Positions 52,854 through 62,456 are shown, counted from the first letter of the stretch. The stretch is DNA of 64,000 bases from a bacterium (GCA_019637795.1 JAHBUY010000002.1:62001-126000), one strand, 5' to 3'. Notes: a model not told the origin generated them from the letters alone. A program made the numbers and translations.

Positions 52854-52927
52854 GCGGGCGTAGCTCAGTTGGCTAGAGCGTATGCTTGCCAAGCATAAGG
52901 TCGCCGGTTCGACCCCGGTCGCCCGCT
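52854..52927 (+). tRNA. tRNA-Gly(GCC)
   Basis: 74 nt cloverleaf: acceptor GCGGGCG (52854-52860) pairs with CGCCCGC (52920-52926), D arm GCTCAGTTGGCTAGAGC, anticodon stem TATGC/GCATA with loop TTGCCAA, anticodon GCC at 52888-52890, and T arm GCCGGTTCGACCCCGGT. Discriminator T; CCA is not encoded. The 3' half is also the end of the integrase gene on the other strand, so it is the likely attachment site of the element to its right. Confidence 0.96.
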
Positions 52928-54231
52928 CTCGAAAGCCCCGCAATTCCAACGAGTTGCGGGGCTTCTTCTTTCTGGGATTCCGTGTCGCCGGTGGCTGGTT
53001 GCGGATAGGTTGCGGATGGTTGCGGGGCGTCGTCGAGTTGATCGAGCTGCGCCAGCCGGCGCTTGCGCGCTTCCGCGTCGCCCTTGATGAGGTGCCCGTA
53101 GCGCTCGAGGGTGAAGCTCGCCTTGTGGTGCCCGAGCTGCTGAGAGACGTACAGCAGCTCAACGCCGTCCTGCAGGAGCTGGCTCGCGTAGCCGTGGCGG
53201 ATGTCGTGAATCCGCACCTTCCGCAACTCAGCCGCAACCAAAAGCGGCTCGAACACCCGCTTGCGGAAGTTGTCGGGGTCGCCGGGGTCCTTGCCGTGGC
53301 TGAACACCCAGGCATCCAGGGCACCGGCCAGGTCGGCTTCGAGCGCCGCCTGCGCCTCGGCGTCGATGGCGACCACGCGCTCGAAGCGGTCCGCCCACAG
53401 CTCGCGCAGCACGGCCTGTAGCTGGGAGGACATGTCGACGCGCCGGGTCGCCCGCCGCCCCGCCCGGCTGCCCTTCGGGCTGACGATCTTGCCTTTCACC
53501 CAGGCGCGGTCGACGGTCAGGAAGCCGCCGGCAAAGTCGATGTCGCCCCACTTGAGCGCCAGCGCCTCGCCCAGGCGCAGGCCGGTGCGGGCGAGCAGCA
53601 AGAGGAACGGGTGGTGGTCGCGGTACGGGTACACCGTCTTGCCGTGCCGCTCGATCGCGTGCGTCTGCGCGGTGTGGAGGAGCTGCGCCGTCTCGCCGCG
53701 CGTCAGCGGGTCGATCTTCTTTGCCTCGGCGGGGAACAGCTTCTTCAGGCCGCGGGCCGGGTTGGTGGCAATGTGCTCGTCCTCGATCGCCTCCGAGAAC
53801 AAGCTCGATAGGGTCGCCAGCGTCTTCTGGATGTTCCGGCCGGACTTCTCCGCGGCCTGCAGCCCGTGAGCAAACGCCTTCACGTCGGCGCGCGTGATCT
53901 CGCCCAGGCGCCGCGGGCCGAGCACCGGCAGGATGCGGAGTCGGAAGCTGATCTCGTAGTCCTCGGCGGTCGTGGCCTTCCGCCGCCTCTCGATGCGGGG
54001 CAGGAACACCTTCGTGGCGTACTCCTCGAGCGTCGGCGTCGTCGCGGCCGGCTCCGGATCTTTGGGCACGATCCCCAAGTCGACCGCGGCCAGCCGCTCC
54101 TCGGTTCGCTTCCGCAGCTTCTCGGCTTCCTTCTTCTCGATCCGCCCGAGTCGCTTCGCCGTCCGCTTGCCGTGATGGTCGACAAACAGCCACCACTCGC
54201 CCGGCCGGCGCTCGCGCAGTTTCACCGCCAT
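52873..54231 (-). CDS. int: Tyrosine recombinase (site-specific integrase)
   Basis: 452 residues from the ATG at 54231. An N-terminal Arm-type region ('RRPGEWWLFVDHHGKRTAKR'), a SAM-like core-binding domain ('TTPTLEEYATKVFLPRIERR' onward) and the catalytic domain with the tetrad R ('LLARTGLRLGEALALKWGDI'), HxxR ('VRIHDIRHGYASQLLQDG'), H ('QQLGHHKASFTLERYGHL') and nucleophile Y in the same stretch. The last about 18 codons (ending LMLGKHTL) are written in the tRNA-Gly gene on the opposite strand, so the stop lies inside the tRNA. This is the usual sign of an element integrated at a tRNA 3' end. The start overlaps the next small gene by 3-4 bp (ATGA). Confidence 0.95.
   Translation of the reverse strand: MAVKLRERRPGEWWLFVDHHGKRTAKRLGRIEKKEAEKLRKRTEERLAAVDLGIVPKDPEPAATTPTLEEYATKVFLPRIERRRKATTAEDYEISFRLRILPVLGPRRLGEITRADVKAFAHGLQAAEKSGRNIQKTLATLSSLFSEAIEDEHIATNPARGLKKLFPAEAKKIDPLTRGETAQLLHTAQTHAIERHGKTVYPYRDHHPFLLLLARTGLRLGEALALKWGDIDFAGGFLTVDRAWVKGKIVSPKGSRAGRRATRRVDMSSQLQAVLRELWADRFERVVAIDAEAQAALEADLAGALDAWVFSHGKDPGDPDNFRKRVFEPLLVAAELRKVRIHDIRHGYASQLLQDGVELLYVSQQLGHHKASFTLERYGHLIKGDAEARKRRLAQLDQLDDAPQPSATYPQPATGDTESQKEEAPQLVGIAGLSRAGDRGRTGDLMLGKHTL
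52934..52963 (+). terminator. Intrinsic terminator of tRNA-Gly
   Basis: A 10 bp stem (AGCCCCGCAA at 52934-52943 with its complement at 52954-52963), a 10 nt loop and TCTTCTTT directly after. It also falls inside the integrase coding region on the other strand. Confidence 0.8.
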
Positions 54232-54392
54232 CAGCCCCTCCCCTTCCGCCGCCGCGGCTTCGTCGGCTGCGCGGCCTGCTCCTGCTCGCGGTTGATCGCG
54301 AGAACATCCCGGGCAAACGTCTCCAGCGCCTGCAGCAGCGCCGCCAGCGCCGGCGCGGGAACGGCGATCGTGCGCGTGGTCGCGGTCGCCAT
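54231..54392 (-). CDS. Small unknown protein upstream of integrase
   Basis: 53 residues, 'MATATTRTIAVPAPALAALL' then 'FARDVLAINREQEQAAQ' and a basic tail 'KPRRRKGRG'. It starts with an ATG overlapping the stop of the next gene upstream and ends overlapping the integrase ATG, so it is held in a coupled series. The helical Ala/Leu core and Lys/Arg tail suggest a small DNA-binding protein; an excisionase role would be guesswork. Confidence 0.5.
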   Translation of the reverse strand: MATATTRTIAVPAPALAALLQALETFARDVLAINREQEQAAQPTKPRRRKGRG

Positions 54393-54658
54393 CACTCCGC
54401 CTCCCTGGTCTTCGGCGGCTTGCAGCGCCAGCCGTGGATCTCGAGCACCGCCGCCAGCGTGTCCTGCGTGCACCGATACTCGGCATCGGCGATGAGCAAC
54501 TGTGCCCACGTCATGGCGAGGTCGTGCGCGACCTCGTCGCGGCGGTCCAGCAGCTTCGCCCACTTCTTTTTCCCATTGCGTCCTCCGTTGGCCCTTGGCC
54601 GGTTGTGTTTCGTGTGCGTGCGTGATACATCACGCGCACATGAGTAGCAAGCGCCCAT
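54392..54658 (-). CDS. Small unknown element protein
   Basis: 88 residues if the ATG at 54658 is used; the first about 30 residues (with 'CYSCARDVSRTHTKHNRP') overlap the dyad-rich control region, so the true start may be later. The convincing part is 'KKKWAKLLDRRDEVAHDLAM' and 'CTQDTLAAVLEIHGWRCKPP', helical and charged. The stop overlaps the next gene by 3-4 bp. Family unknown. Confidence 0.45.
   Translation of the reverse strand: MGACYSCARDVSRTHTKHNRPRANGGRNGKKKWAKLLDRRDEVAHDLAMTWAQLLIADAEYRCTQDTLAAVLEIHGWRCKPPKTREAE
54620..54635. promoter_or_regulatory. Operator-like dyad 1 in element control region
   Basis: GCGTGAT, AC, ATCACGC: a 7 bp inverted repeat containing TGATAC. Between the integrase-side genes and the divergent RHH gene. 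Confidence 0.4.
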
Positions 54659-54679
54659 TGGAGGAGTGCCGCCGACGTG

Positions 54680-54694
54680 ATACCCGAGTGGTAT
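54680..54694. promoter_or_regulatory. Operator-like dyad 2 in element control region
   Basis: ATACC, CGAGT, GGTAT: perfect 5 bp arms, and the sequence from 54678 reads TGATACC, sharing TGATAC with dyad 1. It ends 17 bp before the RHH gene start, where a repressor of that family could bind. Confidence 0.45.
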
Positions 54695-54711
54695 TGGTCG
54701 GGGGTGTGGGG

Positions 54712-54921
54712 ATGGCGAAGGGAAGCAAGGTTCCTGCGTCGGACGCGGCGATCTCAATTCGCCTTCCAACGGAGATAGTCCGGCGGGCTGATGCGCTGGT
54801 TGCGCCGCTGGCACACGAAGCCGCGGCACAGGGTATCACGCGCGTTGGCCGCTCCGTCGTCATCAAGCGGGCACTGCTTGAGGGTCTCGCGGTGCTCGAG
54901 GCGCGGTACAAGTCCCGCTGA
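54712..54921 (+). CDS. Ribbon-helix-helix DNA-binding protein
   Basis: 69 residues from the ATG at 54712. The ribbon is 'DAAISIRLPTEIVRRADALV' (about 10-29), the helices are 'VAPLAHEAAAQGITRVGRSV' and 'VIKRALLEGLAVLEARYKS'; this is a CopG/Arc-type layout. It is the only gene of the element on the plus strand and lies beside two dyads that share TGATAC, so it is probably the repressor of the integrase side or of itself. An ATG at 54640 would add 24 residues without family likeness. Its 3' end overlaps the convergent zinc-ribbon gene by 59 bp. Confidence 0.7.
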   Translation: MAKGSKVPASDAAISIRLPTEIVRRADALVAPLAHEAAAQGITRVGRSVVIKRALLEGLAVLEARYKSR

Positions 54922-55099
54922 CCGCGTACACCGTCACCGCCCCCAGCTCCGCCCCGCAGAGCGCGCAGCCCGCGTCGAGGTCGCCCGCCAGCGGCGCCCC
55001 CGGCCGGCTGTAGCGATAGCGGCAGCGCGAGCACGCCACGGTGAACCAGCGCCGGTCCGGCTCGCGTAACGGTGTGACGTGTGGCGTAACGGGTAACAT
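54863..55099 (-). CDS. Small zinc-ribbon protein
   Basis: 78 residues from the ATG at 55099 (a GTG at 55105 overlapping the upstream stop is the alternative). Two CxxC pairs, 'VACSRCRYRYSRPG' and 'GCALCGAELG', about 24 residues apart, make a zinc ribbon. 'REPDRRWFTVACSRC' resembles small phage zinc-finger proteins found beside terminases. It is the last gene of the TerL-side series. Function unknown. Confidence 0.55.
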   Translation of the reverse strand: MLPVTPHVTPLREPDRRWFTVACSRCRYRYSRPGAPLAGDLDAGCALCGAELGAVTVYAVSGTCTAPRAPRDPQAVPA

Positions 55100-55101
55100 C
55101 G

Positions 55102-55389
55102 TCACAGCTCCCGCACGTCCGGCACCCGCTGCCGATCCCGCCAGCGGTGCAGCAGGCGACGGCAGTTGGGTGGCACGCGGAAGCCGGTCAGCGTCTCCAT
55201 CTCGACGGCGCCCGGCCAGTCGCGCGTTTTGACCTGCACGAGAACCACGTCGGTCGACCCGATGCCGATCAAGTCCCACGCGCCGAGCGAGCCCGCGGCC
55301 CGCGTGACCGCATAGCCCGCCGCCTCGAGCAGCACGCGGCTGCGGTGCTCGTTGCGCGTGCCTTTTCGTTTCGCGTTGGGGAGCGCCAT
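55102..55389 (-). CDS. PD-(D/E)XK nuclease, Holliday-junction-resolvase-like
   Basis: 95 residues. 'KRKGTRNEHRSRVLLEAAGY' holds the first-helix Glu, 'VTRAAGSLGAWDLIGIG' the motif II Asp, and 'DVVLVQVKTRDWPG' the QxK of motif III, which is the order of archaeal-type Hjc and phage resolvase/endonuclease families. It would resolve or trim branched DNA before packaging or during replication. The ATG shares one base with the TerL stop (TGATG), so it is made with the terminase. Confidence 0.75.
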   Translation of the reverse strand: MALPNAKRKGTRNEHRSRVLLEAAGYAVTRAAGSLGAWDLIGIGSTDVVLVQVKTRDWPGAVEMETLTGFRVPPNCRRLLHRWRDRQRVPDVREL

Positions 55390-56789
55390 CAGAAGCCCGT
55401 CAGCCGGGCCAGGCCGCGGAAGCCCTCCCGGCGCCCGCCCGCCAGATAGGTCGCCATCGCGACTGCATTGGCCCGGTCGTCGTGGGCGCCCGGCCGATGG
55501 TCGACACGGTCCTTGCCGCCGAAGCCGCGTTTGCGCTCCAGGCCGCGCAGCTCGCGCAGCAACACCGGATCATGCGGCACCGTGACGGTGCCGGAGAGCA
55601 CGCGCGGTAGAAACTCGAGGTACAGCGCCGAGCGGTCCAACTCGCTCGGGATCAGCGACGCGCCAGCCCGCTCCGCGGCGCGCTGCGGGAATTGCGCGCC
55701 GTAGCGGTCGGCCGTGATGCGCTGGCACCCGTAGCGGCGGGCGAAGTCGACCAACTCGCCCATGACCGTCTCGGGATTGTGCGGCGCGGGCCAGGCGCGC
55801 ACCGCCGCCACCACGACCCGATCACCGTCACGGTACGCCACCGCCGCCGCGGTCGCGTCGCGCTGCCCGCCCGACACGTCGGCACCGCAGACGTAGGTTA
55901 CGCCGTCTCGCGGCGGCTGCTCCCGCCAGTCGGCCACGCAGCCGTCGAGCGCCTCGGGATCGAGCAGCGTCGCGAGACCCGCCCGGAACTCGCCCAGCAC
56001 CTCCGACCGGTAGGCGTCGGGGTCGTCGTCCCGCATCCGCTCAAGGTAGTCGGCTGGCAAGCCGTCGTGCATCGTCGTCGCCGACGCCTGCCAGACGAGC
56101 GTCGCCGAGTCCTCGCGGCCGAAGTGCCGGCGGTGCAGCTCCCAGAGCGCGCCCGCCTGCCCATACGGCGACGACAGCACCAGCAACCGCCCGCCCGTGG
56201 TCGCGAGCGCCGGCGTCAGCGCCCGCAGCATCTCGACGTCCACGGGGTTGCCGTCGCTGGCGCGGTAGAACGCCAGCTCATCGGCCACGGCAACTAACGC
56301 CCGGATGCCGCGCACCGCCGCCGGCCGGCAGGGATAGACGCCGATCGTCACGCCGTTGGCCAGCGTCAGCGCGTCCGCGGTGCGCCCGGTCACCATGCGC
56401 GCCAGCATCGGCACGCGCTCGAATGCCTGGCAGATGTAGCGGAAGGCGGCGCGCATCGAGCCGCGCATGTCCTGCGCGACCAGCACCGCGTAGGTGCCGT
56501 CCGCGCTGCCGTCCGCCGGCGCGGTGGCGGCGGTGTAGATCACGACGTCGCCGGCCGTCTGTGTCTTGCCGGATTGGCGGCCGGTGATGACCGCACCCGC
56601 CGGATAGCCGCCGGCCCGCGGCTGCTCGCGGCCCGTGCAGGCGCGGAAGAGCGCCAGCCCGTTGTCGTCGAGCGGCAGGCCGTAGAGTGCCCGCAACCAT
56701 GCATCCCACGCGCGCTGCGTCGCTGGGCGCCGCATGTGCGGCAGGCGCCCAAGTAGCTGCGGGTCGTGGCGGAAGTCGATGATGTCCAC
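55389..56789 (-). CDS. terL: Phage terminase large subunit
   Basis: 466 residues from a GTG at 56789. ATPase domain: Walker A 'VITGRQSGKTQTAG' (K75) and Walker B 'RALVAVADELAFY' (D170, E171), with the coupling motif 'LLVLSSPYG' at about 202-210. RNase H-like nuclease domain: D304 in 'YVCGADVSGGQRDATA', a second Asp in 'RITADRYGAQ' and a third in 'GAHDDRANAVAMATYL'. Both activities look intact. It packages concatemeric DNA into a procapsid, yet no portal or capsid gene lies beside it, which is the strongest hint that the element depends on a helper or that it lost these genes. Confidence 0.9.
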   Translation of the reverse strand: MDIIDFRHDPQLLGRLPHMRRPATQRAWDAWLRALYGLPLDDNGLALFRACTGREQPRAGGYPAGAVITGRQSGKTQTAGDVVIYTAATAPADGSADGTYAVLVAQDMRGSMRAAFRYICQAFERVPMLARMVTGRTADALTLANGVTIGVYPCRPAAVRGIRALVAVADELAFYRASDGNPVDVEMLRALTPALATTGGRLLVLSSPYGQAGALWELHRRHFGREDSATLVWQASATTMHDGLPADYLERMRDDDPDAYRSEVLGEFRAGLATLLDPEALDGCVADWREQPPRDGVTYVCGADVSGGQRDATAAAVAYRDGDRVVVAAVRAWPAPHNPETVMGELVDFARRYGCQRITADRYGAQFPQRAAERAGASLIPSELDRSALYLEFLPRVLSGTVTVPHDPVLLRELRGLERKRGFGGKDRVDHRPGAHDDRANAVAMATYLAGGRREGFRGLARLTGF

Positions 56790-56804
56790 CGGGACGCGGC
56801 CCCG

Positions 56805-57254
56805 TCACATGCCGCGCGCCGGCATGAACCCATGGCGCGGCCGCCCGGTGCCGGCCGCACCGGCGAGGATGTCGCGCGCCTGGTCCTTGCTCAGCTCGCC
56901 CGCCTCGACGCGGCGGGCGACGTCCGCGCACAGGTCCTCGGCCACGCCGTCGTCGGCGGTGCCGGCGAGAATGGCGTCGAGCGTCTGGCGGGCCGCGCGC
57001 TCCACGCGCAGCAACTCGTCGTGCTCGACGCGCCAGCGCGTCAGGTCCCCAGCATCGGCGGCGGACGCCGAGCGGATGCGGTCCGCCAGCGCCGTACGGC
57101 GCGCCGCCGCCCGCCTGAGCGGCTCAGCGGCCGAGTCCGCAGCCGCGGCGTGTGCCCGATCGCGGAGCTGCCGCGCCTGGTCGGGCGCGGCGGCGGCGAG
57201 CGCATCCATCAGGCGGCGGTGCCGGTCACGCAAGGTGGTGATGATGTCGGTCAT
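56805..57254 (-). CDS. Helical protein upstream of terL
   Basis: 149 residues from the ATG at 57254 (GGAG about 7 nt upstream). Almost entirely helical and charged: 'ITTLRDRHRRLMDALAAAAP', 'LRDRAHAAAADSAAEPLRRA' and 'VARRVEAGELSKDQARDILA'. Coiled coil is likely over about 10-110. Small terminase subunits often lie just upstream of terL and are helical, so that is a possible role; no DNA-binding HTH is clear. 15 bp separate it from terL. Confidence 0.6.
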   Translation of the reverse strand: MTDIITTLRDRHRRLMDALAAAAPDQARQLRDRAHAAAADSAAEPLRRAAARRTALADRIRSASAADAGDLTRWRVEHDELLRVERAARQTLDAILAGTADDGVAEDLCADVARRVEAGELSKDQARDILAGAAGTGRPRHGFMPARGM

Positions 57255-57400
57255 GATGAATCTCCAGCTCCTCCTGTCGGTGGTGTGAACCGGGCACCGC
57301 CGGACGCGCGCCGGGAGGAGTCGGACGCGACGCCGGCGGGCCGGCCTGCCGGGGGTCGGCAAGGGTCAGTGCATCGCCTCCCGAGCATCGAGGCGCGACA

Positions 57401-57535
57401 TCACGCAGTTCGATTATCTTGGTGGTCGGTCAAGGCGTCGCCCACGGCCGCCAGCCGTCGACGCAAGTGCCACCGCTCGGCGTCCACGGCGTCGAGGTCC
57501 CAGAGCGGCCAGGCGAGGCGCTCGGCGTGCGTCAT
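57401..57535 (-). CDS. Very small element protein (44 residues)
   Basis: 'MTHAERLAWPLWDLDAVDAE' followed by 'RWHLRRRLAAVGDALTDHQD' and a short end. Its ATG overlaps the stop of the 77-residue gene (ATGA), as in all other links of this series, which is the main reason to call it. Charged amphipathic helices are likely. The 146 bp between it and the next gene hold only an 11-codon frame (start overlapping its stop) and no other feature. Confidence 0.5.
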   Translation of the reverse strand: MTHAERLAWPLWDLDAVDAERWHLRRRLAAVGDALTDHQDNRTA

Positions 57536-57765
57536 CGGCGGTCCTCGCCGTAGGCGTGCCGCCCGCAGGCGCAGCGCCAGTCCGCCAGCAGCCGGCCCAG
57601 CTGCCGCTCACTGGCGGCGCGCAGCACCTCGCGCGTGTGGCCCGGGCCGAGCTGGCCGCAGGAGGCGCCGGCGATCGGCAGCGCCACGCCACACTCCGGG
57701 CGCCACACGCGCAGCGGCGGGCCATCGTACGGGCTAGCAGGGCGCGGATGCGATGGGTCAGTCAT
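57532..57765 (-). CDS. Small cysteine-containing element protein (77 residues)
   Basis: Cysteines in 'VWRPECGVALPIAGASCGQ' and 'DWRCACGRHAYGE' could bind one zinc. A helical middle (EVLRAASERQLGRLLAD) lies between. It overlaps the next gene upstream by 8 bp and the 44-residue gene downstream by 4 bp. Family unknown. Confidence 0.5.
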   Translation of the reverse strand: MTDPSHPRPASPYDGPPLRVWRPECGVALPIAGASCGQLGPGHTREVLRAASERQLGRLLADWRCACGRHAYGEDRR

Positions 57766-57955
57766 CGAGGTCTCCCTCGAGCAGCCCGGCGGCGATCAGC
57801 TGGTCGCGCAGGCTGCCGTGCTGCGTCGCCACCGGCTGGCGATCGCGCTGCTGCTGCTCGCGGCGGCGGCGCACCTCGGCACTGATCGCGCTGCCGAGCG
57901 CCTGCGCGGCCCGGCGCTCGCGGTCGGATGCCCAGCGGCGGCCGGCGCGGCTCAT
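57758..57955 (-). CDS. Small helical element protein (65 residues)
   Basis: 'MSRAGRRWASDRERRAAQAL', 'SAISAEVRRRREQQQRDRQP', then 'LRDQLIAAGLLEGDLDD'. Basic at the N-terminus and acidic at the C-terminus. The ATG overlaps the stop of the 137-residue gene by 4 bp. Its long upstream open frame is a shadow of that gene. Family unknown. Confidence 0.5.
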   Translation of the reverse strand: MSRAGRRWASDRERRAAQALGSAISAEVRRRREQQQRDRQPVATQHGSLRDQLIAAGLLEGDLDD

Positions 57956-58365
57956 CGGTCGGCCCTCGGGTGCGCGAAATCGGCCGGGCAAGGGGTAGAC
58001 CCCACCCCGGCCGAAATCTGTGGACAAGACGTAGGAACGGCGGGCATTTTTCGGCGGCGCGTGGCGCGGCTGGTGCGCGTGTACGCCAACTCGCGGGCAT
58101 ACCAGTCGAGCACGCACCGGAACGGGATCACCACCGCGCCGTGGCGGTCGTGGCGATCGAGCACGCGGGCGAAGAACTCGCCGGGCTGGTCGATCCGGCC
58201 GCGGAACTGCCGCGTCAGGAAATCGAGCGACCAGCCGTAGCGCCGGGCGGCGCGGGCGAAGTCGCGGCACGTCACCGCCACGGGCACCGGCAGGCGCGGG
58301 CGAGCATGGCAGGCACGGGCCGGTAGGCCGGCATGGCACAGGCACTCGAGGATGTCGTCGGTCAT
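57952..58365 (-). CDS. Unknown element protein (137 residues)
   Basis: The core is 'CRDFARAARRYGWSLDFLTR', 'QFRGRIDQPGEFFARVLDRH' and 'FRCVLDWYARELAYTRTSRA', then a Pro/Cys-rich tail. Several cysteines near the start ('LECLCHAGLPARACHA') and end are loosely spaced. Helical DNA- or protein-binding roles are possible. Both ends overlap neighbours by 4 bp. I do not recognise a family. Confidence 0.55.
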   Translation of the reverse strand: MTDDILECLCHAGLPARACHARPRLPVPVAVTCRDFARAARRYGWSLDFLTRQFRGRIDQPGEFFARVLDRHDRHGAVVIPFRCVLDWYARELAYTRTSRATRRRKMPAVPTSCPQISAGVGSTPCPADFAHPRADR

Positions 58366-58964
58366 GCGGGATCGTCTCCTGTGGTGTCGGCGGACACCTC
58401 GGCGTCGACCGCGGCCGCCTCGGCCGGCGGCGCAGCCTCGGCCGGCGCGGCAGCGGGCGCGGCGCGATCGCGCAGGTAGGCGTCGAGGTCCGGCACGTCG
58501 ACGGTCCGGTCTGGGCGCAGGCCGAGCGCCTGCAGCATCCGAGACAGCGACTGGACGTGGGTCACGTACCCGCGGCGCAGGATGGGCAGCAGCTCGCCGG
58601 CGTTGTCGACCAGGCGGTCGGCGTGGCCGAACACGTGTCCCTCAATCGTCGAGCAAATCAGCGCCGCCGCGGCGCAGCGGTCGATCAGCAGCCGCTCTCG
58701 CGCCGTCAGGCGGTCCAGCCCGCCGGCATCGGCGGCGAGGTCCTGTCGGAGGTCGGCCAGCGCCCGGGCAATCCAGGTGCGGCGGTCGAGGCTCCCGGCG
58801 GCGATGTGGCGGGCGAGCGAGCGGGCACCGCTCTTGAGCGGGGCGCCGGCGCGGCGGGGGCCGACGTCCTGCCGGCGGTGCCGCGAGCGTCCGCCGTCTC
58901 GGCCGCGACGTGGTGACTGCGCGGTGACCGGCCCATCATCGCCGGCGTAAGTAGGCGTCGTCAT
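58362..58964 (-). CDS. Unknown element protein (200 residues)
   Basis: Starts at the ATG 58964, overlapping the stop of the HTH gene upstream. A basic, disordered N-terminus (about 1-45) leads to a helical domain 'SLARHIAAGSLDRRTWIARA', 'GLDRLTARERLLIDRCAAAA', 'YVTHVQSLSRMLQALGLRPD' and an Ala/Pro/Glu tail (about 150-200). Domain layout and position resemble small phage-packaging or terminase-associated proteins, but nothing specific is recognisable. Confidence 0.55.
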   Translation of the reverse strand: MTTPTYAGDDGPVTAQSPRRGRDGGRSRHRRQDVGPRRAGAPLKSGARSLARHIAAGSLDRRTWIARALADLRQDLAADAGGLDRLTARERLLIDRCAAAALICSTIEGHVFGHADRLVDNAGELLPILRRGYVTHVQSLSRMLQALGLRPDRTVDVPDLDAYLRDRAAPAAAPAEAAPPAEAAAVDAEVSADTTGDDPA

Positions 58965-59317
58965 GCGGCTTTTTCCGCTCGATCCCCGATGCCATGCTCG
59001 GCACACTCGGAATCGAGCGCGGCGGTCAGCTCGGCGAGGCTGAATCGCCGGTAGCGACCGAACATCCGGTGCGGCAGCCGGCCGAGACGGCTCAGCTCGT
59101 TGATCGTCGAGACTGACAAGCTGAATCGCCGCGCCACCTCAGCGGCGGTCACCCACTCGCCGACCGGCGAGCTGCTGGGCGCCGCCGGCGGTGCGGTCAG
59201 CCGGGCGTGCAGACGCGCCTGCGTCGCCGCGCACGCGCCGATGGCGTCCGCCAGCTCGGCTCGCGGCAAGTCGCGCTCGGCCTGCTCGAGGGCGCGGCGC
59301 AGCTCCTCGAGGGTCAT
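58961..59317 (-). CDS. Helix-turn-helix protein, excisionase/MerR-like
   Basis: 118 residues. N-terminal helix pair 'LEELRRALEQAERDLPRAEL', then a winged HTH 'WVTAAEVARRFSLSVSTINE' with 'RLPHRMFGRYRRFSLAELTA', the HTH_17 excisionase-type domain. Its position between the origin-like array and small genes suggests a replication or excision control factor. Overlaps both neighbours by 4 bp. Confidence 0.75.
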   Translation of the reverse strand: MTLEELRRALEQAERDLPRAELADAIGACAATQARLHARLTAPPAAPSSSPVGEWVTAAEVARRFSLSVSTINELSRLGRLPHRMFGRYRRFSLAELTAALDSECAEHGIGDRAEKAA

Positions 59318-59859
59318 CGTCCCTCCTCGCCGACGATGCGCGAAGCATCAGCGGCCCCAGGGGCGCCGGTCGCGGGCCGGTCATCCGCCACCCGATCCCG
59401 CACCGCGAGCAACTCACCCACGGTCACTCGCCCACACCACGCGCGCCAGCTCGGCTCGCCCGCGATGGTCTCGCCGGCCACCTCGAGCGCGGGCCAGCCA
59501 CGGCGGGCGAGCCAGAAGAGCGCGGAGGAGAGGTCAGACCAGCGCGGGCGGTCGGAGGGAGCGAGCGGGCGCGGCGCCAGGAACGCGACTCGCGACGGCG
59601 TCCGGCGCGCCTCAGAATCGACGAAATCAGCCTGTGGATAACTTGCGGCGTGATCCGCGGGTGCGGATCGCTCTGATCCGCGCTGTGATCCGCAATCGTG
59701 ATCCGCAGGACCACGAGAAAACGTAGCATCGACAAGGGCCAGCAGCTCGGCTGATCCGCGCGTGATCCGCTGATCCGATCCGGCGGAGCCTCCGTGATCC
59801 GCTGATCCACCCTCTATAGGGTGGATCGCGGATCGCTGGATCGCGGATCGGTCAGTCAT
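59314..59859 (-). CDS. Unknown protein whose N-terminal half is coded by the iteron-like array
   Basis: 181 residues from the ATG at 59859. The first about 75 residues are repetitive ('TDRSAIQRSAIHPIEGGSAD', 'SDQRITRGSAELL', 'ADHDCGSQRG'), because they are written in the repeat array; the C-terminal half ('RPRWSDLSSALFWLARRGWP', 'GRVTVGELLAVRDRVADD') looks like a normal small domain. Overlap with the helicase gene is 8 bp and with the HTH gene 4 bp. It resembles the way the lambda O gene carries its origin iterons within the coding sequence. Function unknown. Confidence 0.55.
   Translation of the reverse strand: MTDRSAIQRSAIHPIEGGSADHGGSAGSDQRITRGSAELLALVDATFSRGPADHDCGSQRGSERSAPADHAASYPQADFVDSEARRTPSRVAFLAPRPLAPSDRPRWSDLSSALFWLARRGWPALEVAGETIAGEPSWRAWCGRVTVGELLAVRDRVADDRPATGAPGAADASRIVGEEGR
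59633..59849. other. Putative replication origin: DnaA box plus iteron-like array
   Basis: A perfect DnaA box (TGTGGATAA, i.e. TTATCCACA on the other strand) at 59633-59641. Then seven exact TGATCCGC copies starting at 59651, 59674, 59686, 59699, 59752, 59763 and 59795, two near copies at 59771 (TGATCCGA) and 59803 (TGATCCAC), and three inverted GCGGATC at 59663, 59828 and 59843. The array lies beside the helicase/primase gene. A mild AT-richer stretch (GAGAAAACGTAGCATCGACA) interrupts it at about 59715-59735. Confidence 0.6.
59804..59827. repeat. Perfect inverted repeat at the end of the iteron-like array
   Basis: GATCCACCCT, CTAT, AGGGTGGATC: 10 bp arms with a 4 bp centre. It may be a Rep/initiator binding site or a hairpin. 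It overlaps the last TGATCCAC copy. Confidence 0.6.
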
Positions 59860-61633
59860 CGTCACCTCCCGGGAGGTGTCCGGCAGCCTGGGCGAGGCGT
59901 CGATGGCGGGCGACGGTAGCGACGCCGACACTCAGCTCGGTGGCGATCTGGCGGTGGGTCATGCCGTCGCGGATCATCGCGGCGACGCGCTCGGTGAGGC
60001 AGTCATCGAGTGACCGCGATGCCCAGACGAGCCCGCCGCGGCCGTCGTCGGCGAGCGATACCTCGATCGTGCGGGCGTCGTCGCCGTGGACGCCGCGGCC
60101 CTTCTCGAGCGCCAGCTCGACCCGGGCGCCCTGCTCAGCGCGATAGTCGCGCGGGCGGCGGAGCGCGAGCACGGTATCGAGCACGTCCTCTCGGCGGCTG
60201 GTGCCGCGCTGCTGGCCGCCTTTGCCCGCGTGGTGAATCAACAGGACCGTGCGCCCAGCCCGGCGCTGTGCGAGCACCCAGCGCTGGAGCGGGAGCCACT
60301 CGTCGGCCTCACTCTCGGCGGCGCTGGTGAGCGTCGAGATGCTGTCGACGATGATCGTGTCGACGCCGTCGAGGTGCGGCGCGATGGCGCGCTGGCCCTC
60401 GGGGCGGGCGAGGTCGGGTAGCGGGCCGGGCTGCAGATCCGGCGTGATGATCCGCAGCATGTCCGGCTCGGGCGCGATCCGCGCGCCGCGGATGAGCTGG
60501 CGCAGGCGGTCGCGCATGGTGACGGCCGGCATCTCGCCGTCGACGTACAGCACGCGGCGCGGCTGCGGCGCCGACCAGCGCAGCAGTGCGGCGCCGGTGG
60601 CGATCGCCAGCGCGATCGACAACGTGAAGTACGTCTTGCCAGCGCCGCGGGGGCCATAGAGCATGGCGAGTCCCTGGGTCGGGAGCACCGGCGCCAGCAC
60701 CATCTCGCGGGGCGCGAGGTCGAGGGTCAGTAGCTCGGCGACGGTGACGACGCGCAGCCCCGGCGTCGCGGCATCCTCGCCCTGGCGCAGCCCGAGCCAC
60801 TCGCGCAGCCGCGCCACCACCGCCTCGCCGTCGGCGAGCAGCTCGGCGAGCCGCGGCCCGCCCGTGGCGGGGTCGCCCGCGGCGATGGCGGCGGCCGTGT
60901 CGCGCACGGCGCGCACTCGGTCGGCCACCTCCGGATCGCCGGCGACGCGCGCCAGCACGCCGATGATCTGCTCGGCATCCTGGGCCGCCATGCCGCCGCG
61001 CAGCAGTGTGCCGGCCAGCGCCAGGGCCACATCGTGGCGGGCACCGTCCGGCCAGCGGCGGGCGAGCATGGCGACGGCGGCGCACTGCCGCACGGCACGC
61101 TGGAGGGCGGCCACGGCGACGTGCGCTGGCTCGCCGGCGGCGTGCCACGTGATGGCCTCGCCGGTCGGGTGCGTCGACGGCGGCACGACGGTCTGACCGC
61201 CGCTCGACCGCAGCTCGATCAGCGTCACCGCACGGCCCTGCGCGTCGCGGGCGGTGGGGTCGCGCAGCCGCTCCGTCTGCGCCGGCGGCGCGTCGACCAC
61301 GTACCAGGCGTGCGACTCAGGCGATGACGCGCGGCCGTGGCGCATGTCGGTCGCGGGACCGAGCAGCGGCCACGCGGCCCGCGCATACGCGTCGTCGAAG
61401 TCGACATCGCAGAGCCCGCCAGACGGCGCGCCGCAAAGGATGCCGATGCCGCCGGCGCTGCCCACCTCGCGCTCGAGGTCGGCGCCCTGCAGGCGCAGGC
61501 GCTGCCAGCCGCGCAGGGTCGGCGCCTTCGCCGCGCGCCCGAGCGGCACGACCGACCAGCCACGCGCCACGTACTCGCGGGCCGCGGCGAGGATGGCGCT
61601 CGGCGCCTCGGCGCGGGCGGTGGCGGCGGTCAC
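59852..61633 (-). CDS. Primase-polymerase/RepA-like helicase fusion
   Basis: 593 residues from a GTG at 61633. The N-terminal Prim-Pol domain has 'YVARGWSVVPLGRAAKAPTL', the metal-binding DxD in 'GLCDVDFDDAYARAAW' (D76, D78) and 'SSGGQTVVPPSTHPTGEAI'. The C-terminal RecA-like domain is of the RepA/RSF1010 type: Walker A 'MLYGPRGAGKTYFTLSIALA' (K333), Walker B 'DTIIVDSIST' and 'LLIHHAGKGGQQRGTSRRED'. A small HTH closes the protein ('MTHRQIATELSVGVATVARH'). It should unwind and prime at the adjacent array. The gene overlaps the AlpA-like gene by 4 bp and the next gene by 8 bp. Confidence 0.9.
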   Translation of the reverse strand: MTAATARAEAPSAILAAAREYVARGWSVVPLGRAAKAPTLRGWQRLRLQGADLEREVGSAGGIGILCGAPSGGLCDVDFDDAYARAAWPLLGPATDMRHGRASSPESHAWYVVDAPPAQTERLRDPTARDAQGRAVTLIELRSSGGQTVVPPSTHPTGEAITWHAAGEPAHVAVAALQRAVRQCAAVAMLARRWPDGARHDVALALAGTLLRGGMAAQDAEQIIGVLARVAGDPEVADRVRAVRDTAAAIAAGDPATGGPRLAELLADGEAVVARLREWLGLRQGEDAATPGLRVVTVAELLTLDLAPREMVLAPVLPTQGLAMLYGPRGAGKTYFTLSIALAIATGAALLRWSAPQPRRVLYVDGEMPAVTMRDRLRQLIRGARIAPEPDMLRIITPDLQPGPLPDLARPEGQRAIAPHLDGVDTIIVDSISTLTSAAESEADEWLPLQRWVLAQRRAGRTVLLIHHAGKGGQQRGTSRREDVLDTVLALRRPRDYRAEQGARVELALEKGRGVHGDDARTIEVSLADDGRGGLVWASRSLDDCLTERVAAMIRDGMTHRQIATELSVGVATVARHRRLAQAAGHLPGGDDD

Positions 61634-61833
61634 GCGGCGGCCCCCTGCCGGGCGGCCAGCCAGGCGCGCACGTCAGCCAGCCGGTAGCGCACACATCGCG
61701 CCGTCAGGTGCACGGCCGGCGGTGCGATGCCGCGTCGCTGCCACGCGTCGAGGGTGCGCGGCGCGATGCCGAGTGTCAGGCACAGCTCGGCGCGCGAGAT
61801 GAGACGGTCAGCGTCGGGGTCGGTATGCGTCAC
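61630..61833 (-). CDS. AlpA-like helix-turn-helix protein
   Basis: 67 residues from a GTG at 61833. 'LISRAELCLTLGIAPRTLDA' forms the HTH, followed by 'WQRRGIAPPAVHLTARCVRY' and 'RLADVRAWLAARQ'. The HTH_17/AlpA type is common in excision and satellite control. It is the first gene of the main operon, with a TACCGT hexamer 9 nt before the GTG and a hairpin 35 bp upstream. Confidence 0.78.
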   Translation of the reverse strand: MTHTDPDADRLISRAELCLTLGIAPRTLDAWQRRGIAPPAVHLTARCVRYRLADVRAWLAARQGAAA

Positions 61834-61842
61834 GGTGCGTGC

Positions 61843-61870
61843 ACGGTAGCGCGCACGCCGGCAGCGTCAC
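61843..61870 (-). promoter_or_regulatory. Candidate promoter of the element's main operon
   Basis: GTGACG (61870-61865), 16 nt, TACCGT (61848-61843) on the minus strand, ending 9 nt before the GTG at 61833. An imperfect dyad (GTGCG...CGCAC) covers the -10. Confidence 0.35.
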
Positions 61871-61899
61871 GGGACCTATATCCGTGGCGCTAGGTCCCG
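61870..61899 (-). terminator. Hairpin after the coiled-coil/HTH gene
   Basis: CGGGACCTA (61870-61878) and its complement TAGGTCCCG (61891-61899) with a 12 nt loop. It overlaps the stop codon of the upstream gene and precedes the operon promoter, so it can separate the two transcripts. Confidence 0.5.
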
Positions 61900-62456
61900 C
61901 TGCTCCGACCGTCGGCGCTCGGCGGGACGCGCACGTACATCGCGCCCTTCTGCGCCATCGCGCGCAGGATGCTCCGGACCGCGGCGTAGCTGCGTCCCGT
62001 CGCCGCCGCCACCGCTGAGCAGGCCACGTACCGCTCGCGGCCCGTCAGCGCGTCCGTGGCGACGCCGCGGCGGTGTGCCATCGTCTGGCACTCCACCTCA
62101 TAGGGGATGACCACCGCCGCCATGTGCTGCTCGTCGGCGTCGGTCCATCGCGGCCCGCGCGCTCTACGGACTGCCGGCAGCTCCTTCTTGCGGTCGCGAT
62201 CCTTGGCGCGTCGCGCCTCGGTTTCGCGCCTCCAGGCGGCGCGGACCGCCGCGATGCGCTCGTCTGCGTCCGCGCGCTCCAGGCCGATGACCACGTCCAC
62301 CGCGTGCTCGAGCTGCTCGACGCGCGCCCGGAGCTGCGCGTTCTCCGCGCGCAGCCGCGCCAGCTCAGTGCGCGGCGGGCGCGTGGCCTTGCGGGCCGCA
62401 CCGACCTGCGCCTCGATCACCTCGCGGGGCGCCAGCTCGATCCGCCGCCGTGCCAT
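61890..62456 (-). CDS. Coiled-coil protein with C-terminal HTH-like segment
   Basis: 188 residues from the ATG at 62456. 'MARRRIELAPREVIEAQVGA' and 'LARLRAENAQLRARVEQLEH' form a coiled coil (about 28-55), then a basic helix 'RAAWRRETEARRAKDRDRKK'. The C-terminal part 'RERYVACSAVAAATGRSYAA' and 'VRSILRAMAQKGAMYVRVPP' reads as an HTH. It could be a DNA-binding regulator or packaging factor. It is the right-most gene I assign to the element. Confidence 0.6.
   Translation of the reverse strand: MARRRIELAPREVIEAQVGAARKATRPPRTELARLRAENAQLRARVEQLEHAVDVVIGLERADADERIAAVRAAWRRETEARRAKDRDRKKELPAVRRARGPRWTDADEQHMAAVVIPYEVECQTMAHRRGVATDALTGRERYVACSAVAAATGRSYAAVRSILRAMAQKGAMYVRVPPSADGRSSGT

Follow-up and report, generated by a model that had tools for sequence, protein, structure and literature searches.

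What is the use of a complete phage terminase in a chromosomal island in which neither a portal nor a capsid gene is recognised? The question is raised by island A, an element of about 9.9 kb inserted at a tRNA-Gly gene in the stretch of DNA analysed here (64,000 nucleotides, C2:62001-126000 of genome G000, a draft of 6.16 Mb in 12 contigs; this whole stretch is called the window, and positions refer to it unless a contig is named). The one evident use for a complete terminase that lacks a portal is to fill heads that receive their portal from another source, and we consider it likely that island A is an intact, integrated, helper-dependent phage satellite which would bring its own motor to the empty heads of its helper. 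The original prediction, made from the sequence alone, had proposed a satellite carrying an intact large terminase; the satellite reading holds, in view of the bounded copies, conserved large terminase and recurrent gene order described below. The features are listed in Table 1.

The large terminase (TerL) of island A is complete. The Walker A residues G70-R71-x-x-G74-K75, the Walker B residues D170-E171 and the acidic residues D304, D361 and D437/D438 are invariant across ten relatives, most of which are 33-38% identical to it. TerL is also under strong purifying selection: among islands A, B and C (B, C and D being further islands on contig C7 of the same genome), the nonsynonymous and synonymous rates are 0.010-0.024 (dN) and 0.15-0.23 (dS), with dN/dS of 0.065-0.10 (about 0.07) and no stops. 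For comparison, the Hjc-like nuclease gives dN 0.019 and dS 0.175 between A and B, and the replication protein a dN/dS of ~0.2 between A and C. The original prediction correctly described an intact TerL, but took it to stand in place of a small subunit; this subunit (TerS), which had been missed, is probably the 200-amino-acid (aa) protein encoded a few genes upstream. Because its sequence match is too faint (a PHROG TerS is matched by just 2 of 65 relatives, best E-value 0.016), fold comparison was needed. The AlphaFold model (predicted local distance difference test score 79.9, ~95 in much of the core) has small terminases as all of its top 12 Foldseek matches in BFVD (best E 5e-3, probability 1.0), and its best match in the PDB is the HK97 small terminase (probability 0.84-0.89, E 0.6). 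These E-values are weak, but the two libraries agree with each other and with gene position, as the TerS family, which forms two clusters, is found a short way ahead of TerL in 94 of 112 loci, in most of them as the immediately preceding gene. With the 200-aa protein modelled as TerS, island A would encode a whole terminase, and the three further genomic copies, together with the pairing in these 94 loci, place the observation beyond chance.

The island A proteins tested against PHROGs, Pfam and NCBIfam included nothing recognisable as a portal, capsid, tail or lysis protein, an absence that the original prediction had noted, and the profile matches also agree with its list of an integrase ending inside tRNA-Gly, an AlpA-like helix–turn–helix (HTH) protein, a Prim-Pol/RepA helicase, a second HTH protein, TerL and a resolvase-like nuclease. 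The minus-strand gene series starts against the 3' end of tRNA-Gly. In the direction of transcription it runs from the 188-aa protein through the AlpA-like HTH, the Prim-Pol/AAA_25 protein, the iterons, the excisionase-like HTH and TerS to small open reading frames (ORFs), then through the 149-aa protein, TerL, the Hjc-like nuclease and further small ORFs to the integrase. Attachment (att)-like repeats lie at both ends with host genes outside them, left of tRNA-Gly and, on the plus strand, beyond 62.8 kb. The right-hand att copy, which had been expected only from an extended contig, lies inside the window and moves the right end of the island from the 62456 first proposed to about 62773. The portal, capsid and tail genes that a complete prophage would have beside terL are thus not what follows the island on either side; host genes are found there.

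Table 1. Features of island A (window positions) and location of the three related islands on contig C7.
Feature	Position	Strand	Evidence or remark
tRNA-Gly(gcc), attachment gene	52854-52928	+	ARAGORN
Tyrosine integrase, 452 aa, ends within the tRNA gene	52873-54231	-	PF00589 E 2.5e-17; phrog_1 E 5.4e-59
att core, 46 bp, 3' part of tRNA-Gly	52884-52929		repeated exactly (46 bp) at C7:2334-2379, where no tRNA gene lies
Two small ORFs, 53 and 40 aa	54231-54514	-	gene calls; 40-aa ORF has a homologue in island C
Divergent ribbon-helix-helix-like ORF, ~69 aa	54712-54921	+	ORF list; likeness judged by eye
Hjc-like PD-(D/E)XK nuclease, 95 aa	55102-55389	-	PF01870 E 4.2e-4, 20.6 bits, just under the Pfam cut-off of 21.1
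Large terminase (TerL), 466 aa, with both its ATPase and its nuclease motifs intact	55389-56789	-	phrog_2 E 3.2e-27; T4 gp17 profile E 2.1e-6
149-aa protein directly upstream of TerL	56805-57254	-	kept in islands B and C
Three small ORFs, 44, 51 and 65 aa	57401-57955	-	gene calls; kept in islands B and C
137-aa ORF, doubtful	57952-58365	-	weak coding score; dN/dS ~0.7
267-bp identity between islands A and B, likely crossover point	58144-58410		
Probable small terminase TerS, 200 aa, HK97/P27-like	58362-58964	-	AlphaFold model and Foldseek; position just before TerL in most loci
Excisionase/HTH_17-like protein, 118 aa	58961-59317	-	PF12728 E 1.7e-7; TIGR01764 E 2.4e-6, slightly below its cut-off
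Iteron cluster, TGATCCGC seven times within 152 bp, candidate origin of replication	59651-59802	+	
Prim-Pol and AAA_25 (RepA-type helicase) replication protein, 593 aa	59852-61633	-	PF09250 E 2.8e-17; PF13481 E 4e-30
AlpA-like HTH, 67 aa	61630-61833	-	PF12728 E 7e-6; MerR_1 E 1.3e-4
188-aa protein, probably coiled coil	61890-62456	-	weak bZIP_2 match only; kept in island C
Right end of island A	62732-62773		matches the 3' end of the C7 ntrC/prsR-like gene at 95% over 42 bp
Island B (locus L010)	C7:2334-12028		integrase adjoins the ntrC/prsR-like response-regulator gene at its 3' end
Island C	C7:302336-312455		at tRNA-Leu(taa), exact 39-40-bp direct repeat at both ends
Island D	C7:161842-174320		at tRNA-Arg(cct), imperfect 41-bp repeat

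A DNA search of the genome gave the three related islands B, C and D, all on contig C7. The four islands measure ~9.7-12.5 kb and have their packaging side in common, while the integrase and the replication module differ: Prim-Pol/AAA_25 is found in A and C and a D5-type helicase in B and D, with D also carrying Prim-Pol and a DEAD-type helicase. A common core combined with different integrases and replication modules supports the satellite reading. No structural gene was recognised between the repeats of island C. The same arrangement was seen in genome G021, where two loci (L032 and L033) with this core and identical TerLs lie at tRNA-Arg and tRNA-Lys and have different integrases and replication genes.

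The family extends far beyond this genome. Of 58 genomes searched, the host's and those around it, 10 carry the family, and a TerL profile scan of 84,980 genomes confirmed 174 relatives, 80 of which were kept; a further source, IMG/VR, gave 22 TerL relatives. Their hosts are Alpha- and Gammaproteobacteria, Acidobacteriota, Planctomycetota, Nitrospirota, Myxococcota, Rokuibacteriota, Actinomycetota and Binatota, the closest TerLs among the relatives kept (49-56%) being those of Acidobacteria and relatives. The supposition that this might be a new satellite family of one bacterial group was therefore too narrow, whereas the gene order, which the original prediction had suggested looking for in related genomes, is found again in unrelated bacteria, and the homologues do not look like one arm of a normal prophage. 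Thirty-one relatives are tRNA-bounded elements with repeats of at least 30 bp; they measure 7.5-18.3 kb (median 11.6 kb) and all have TerS (31/31). They encode 77 proteins of at least 250 aa, most commonly primases and helicases; among the best 25 Pfam families listed for these, which include every match better than ~4e-14, there is no portal, and there are three TMP_2 tape-measure proteins, two TMP_3, one HK97-type capsid and some defence-like proteins. Defence-like cargo is of the kind that satellites carry and supports the satellite reading; in island A itself the only PADLOC hits were cross-matches of HTH and ATPase type. One IMG/VR contig (L123) does have an identified portal. TerL is followed by a major capsid protein in Thiomicrospira (L045; phrog_10 E 2e-68) and in a Roseobacter-type relative (phrog_247 E 1.7e-95), by a head protease in L126, and by tape-measure, neck or hub proteins in other loci. 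Tail genes (a tape measure, with neck or hub genes in some) without a recognised capsid or portal were observed in L056, L090, L108, L111, L113, L119 and others. Such tail-gene-bearing islands are possibly satellites that set tail length. Among isolated phages, the nearest TerLs reach only 21-29% identity, and the long branches of a quick TerL tree do not allow them to be placed.

Free circular relatives exist as well. Direct terminal repeats were found in four related contigs (L127, L128, L133 and L048); the repeat of L048 resembles a tRNA 3' end, and the remaining three close into circles of 9.3-9.7 kb. L127 (9,705 bp) and L128 (9,338 bp) close through the tape-measure gene; besides this gene each has an integrase, an AlpA-like protein, a putative replication gene, TerS and TerL, and cluster matching recognised neither a portal nor a capsid in them. 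They are circles or head-to-tail concatemers, excised or packaged. On the plasmid side, the 25.8-kb pKNA06 of Komagataeibacter (L152) carries TerS-TerL-DUF2213, with a long segment present twice in tandem, and a 9.7-kb Roseomonas plasmid carries a TerL fragment.

Such plasmid relatives, and the defence-like genes of some others, would fit a terminase serving mainly as an anti-phage decoy, a motor that occupies helper portals while the element spreads by generalised transduction or plasmid-like transfer. We regard this as unlikely, because TerL keeps the residues of both nuclease and ATPase and is accompanied by a TerS, as would be expected if DNA is really cut and packaged. A decayed prophage, which would have lost its structural genes and kept the ends devoted to integration, replication and packaging, was the alternative envisaged by the original prediction, and every recognised gene is indeed phage-type and the structural genes are missing. 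It is nevertheless quite improbable: the low TerL dN/dS and the lack of stops count against decay, as do the four att-bounded copies of like content, the recurrence of this gene set across many phyla in elements that are likewise bounded, and the free circular relatives. Least credible is a complete minimal virus with head and tail proteins among the small unrecognised ones, since, although several proteins match nothing and some relatives have a capsid or tape-measure protein, none of the unrecognised proteins exceeds 188 aa, they are neither large nor numerous enough to supply portal, capsid, connectors and tail, and the families listed for the bounded relatives include no portal. Three points weigh against an intact satellite: the assembled copy of island A has ends from two different att sites, a helper phage for it is neither known nor recognised in the genome, and the small proteins are unexplained, so that one of them may be an unrecognised structural protein.

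How would a satellite of this kind work? The tyrosine integrase would excise and integrate the island, the AlpA-like and excisionase-like HTH proteins would control it, and the Prim-Pol/helicase would replicate it from the iteron origin. Upon infection by a helper phage, or upon its induction, the satellite TerS would most likely select the satellite DNA, the Hjc-like nuclease would clear branches from it, and the satellite TerL would dock on the portal of empty heads made by the helper and fill them, in competition with the helper motor. Induction, helper dependence, docking on the helper portal and encapsidation are what we infer from the known roles of TerS and TerL. A helper residing as a prophage in the genome was considered and rejected, as the portal families phrog_12 and PF05133 and the HK97 capsid family PF05065 have no match anywhere in it; the helper is thus probably an infecting phage. 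Across the genome phrog_2 matches the TerLs of the four islands and, weakly, one sequence on contig C4 (E 2e-4), so that, as judged by profile, the only convincing TerLs are those of the islands. A possible generalisation, which we put forward more tentatively than the reading of island A itself, is a large and old satellite lineage that keeps the TerS-TerL core, swaps the rest and brings its own motor to the helper portal, sublineages each overriding one further step (tail length by a tape measure, the head shell by a capsid, or a maturation protease); none would keep a portal, which would be the fixed point of the parasitism.

The mixed ends of island A may be related to exchanges among the sister islands. 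A stretch of 1,831 bp (56449-58279) is the same in A and C, although their replication sides are only ~89% alike, and A shares 267 identical bp with B; such long identities between otherwise differing islands suggest that they recombine with one another, as they appear to do. The far end of A partly copies the 3' end of the regulator gene at which B is inserted, and the far end of B partly copies the tRNA-Gly of A. In five relatives the genes just past the 3' end of the regulator gene are orthologues of C2 genes at the window equivalent of 75986-79106, beyond the right end of A, which indicates that the regulator gene and this right flank were once neighbours. The swapped ends therefore reflect either recombination between islands accompanied by a chromosomal rearrangement, or a crossover made by the assembler at the 267-bp identity. 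Either way, the kind of gene content is unchanged, but the true pairing of replication module with integrase may differ from the assembled one. In genome G003, a tape-measure-bearing relative (L034) adjoins the orthologue of the prsR-like gene that is the integration site of island B.

Among the other genes, the repeat TGATCCGC occurs 15 times in the whole window, against 4.8 expected, with the cluster beside the replication gene, and these repeats are present in island C too. Two proteins of island A match HTH_17 in Pfam. Small proteins of 40, 44, 51, 53, 65, 95, 137, 149, 188 and 200 aa replace the sizes first listed (44, 65, 77, 137, 149, 181 and 200); that they match nothing stands for several of them in profile searches, and fails for the 200-aa protein modelled as TerS. 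The 149-aa protein matches no family in PHROGs, Pfam, PADLOC or NCBIfam searches. The 137-aa frame, given its dN/dS, may encode no protein; no relationship was found between it and the 145-aa protein at the same place in island D. A 57-aa divergent ORF of island C lies at the place matching the ~69-aa divergent ORF of island A.

The satellites known so far either rely on the large terminase of the helper or supply a complete head themselves, and we know of no satellites described from soil and groundwater bacteria. An abundant group with a full motor and no portal would be a third way of hijacking a phage. It implies a satellite TerL able to work on a foreign portal, so that the rules by which motors and portals match become testable, and it makes TerS plus TerL without a portal a searchable marker pair for satellites in soil and groundwater bacteria. 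Virus counts based on TerL will take in satellites. The group is wide, from Acidobacteria to Alphaproteobacteria, yet hardly described.

In common with satellites in general, island A is a bounded integrated element with its own integrase that lacks genes for a whole virion. It nevertheless differs, as judged by gene content, from the four classes compared, phage-inducible chromosomal islands (PICIs), capsid-forming PICIs (cfPICIs), P4-like satellites and PICMI, none of which fits it. PICIs, including the SaPIs, share with it the integrase, AlpA-like control and primase-type replication, and some encode TerS; those described have TerS only (PMC10690885), classical PICIs relying on the helper's TerL, whereas island A encodes an intact one. 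The cfPICIs are integrated satellites with both TerS and TerL (PMC10690885), as in island A, but they have their own portal, protease, major capsid and connectors, none of them recognised in island A, and take only tails. P4-like satellites and AH14b resemble island A in having integrase, AlpA and primase and no virion genes; P4 uses its helper's terminase (PMC10690885), AH14b has no identifiable terminase (PMC4936722), and no PHROG or Pfam match to P4-type genes (psu/sid/delta, alpha primase) was found in island A. PICMI, a reduced satellite of Vibrionaceae in whose paper the word 'terminase' does not occur, packages with helper machinery, while island A belongs to another host group and has its own terminase. 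The TerS-TerL group may overlap the VEIMEs, which, with the tycheposons, are mentioned in PMC10803314 and PMC11389934 as integrative elements that occur in marine bacteria and have been either proposed to be satellites or detected as packaged DNA in phage particles. A literature search for satellites with TerL and without capsid, which did not reach the primary papers on VEIMEs, tycheposons, cfPICIs and SatelliteFinder, gave no description of such a family. Virus Rctr16k (KX853514), a 16.7-kb record with a tail protein, integrase, replication protein and terminase and no portal annotated, resembles the family, but it is a partial genome and its TerL is very distant (25%). The best precedent is the glacier-virome scaffold ML_43_3791 (group G8), a 15.8-kb circle from the virus-size fraction with a terminase, a resolvase, a tail gene, Prim-Pol and a P4-type integrase, which its authors read as a putative satellite without structural genes (PMC4490671). 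Only one such scaffold was described, and it also carries ParB; by gene content it closely resembles the tape-measure-bearing relatives of island A.

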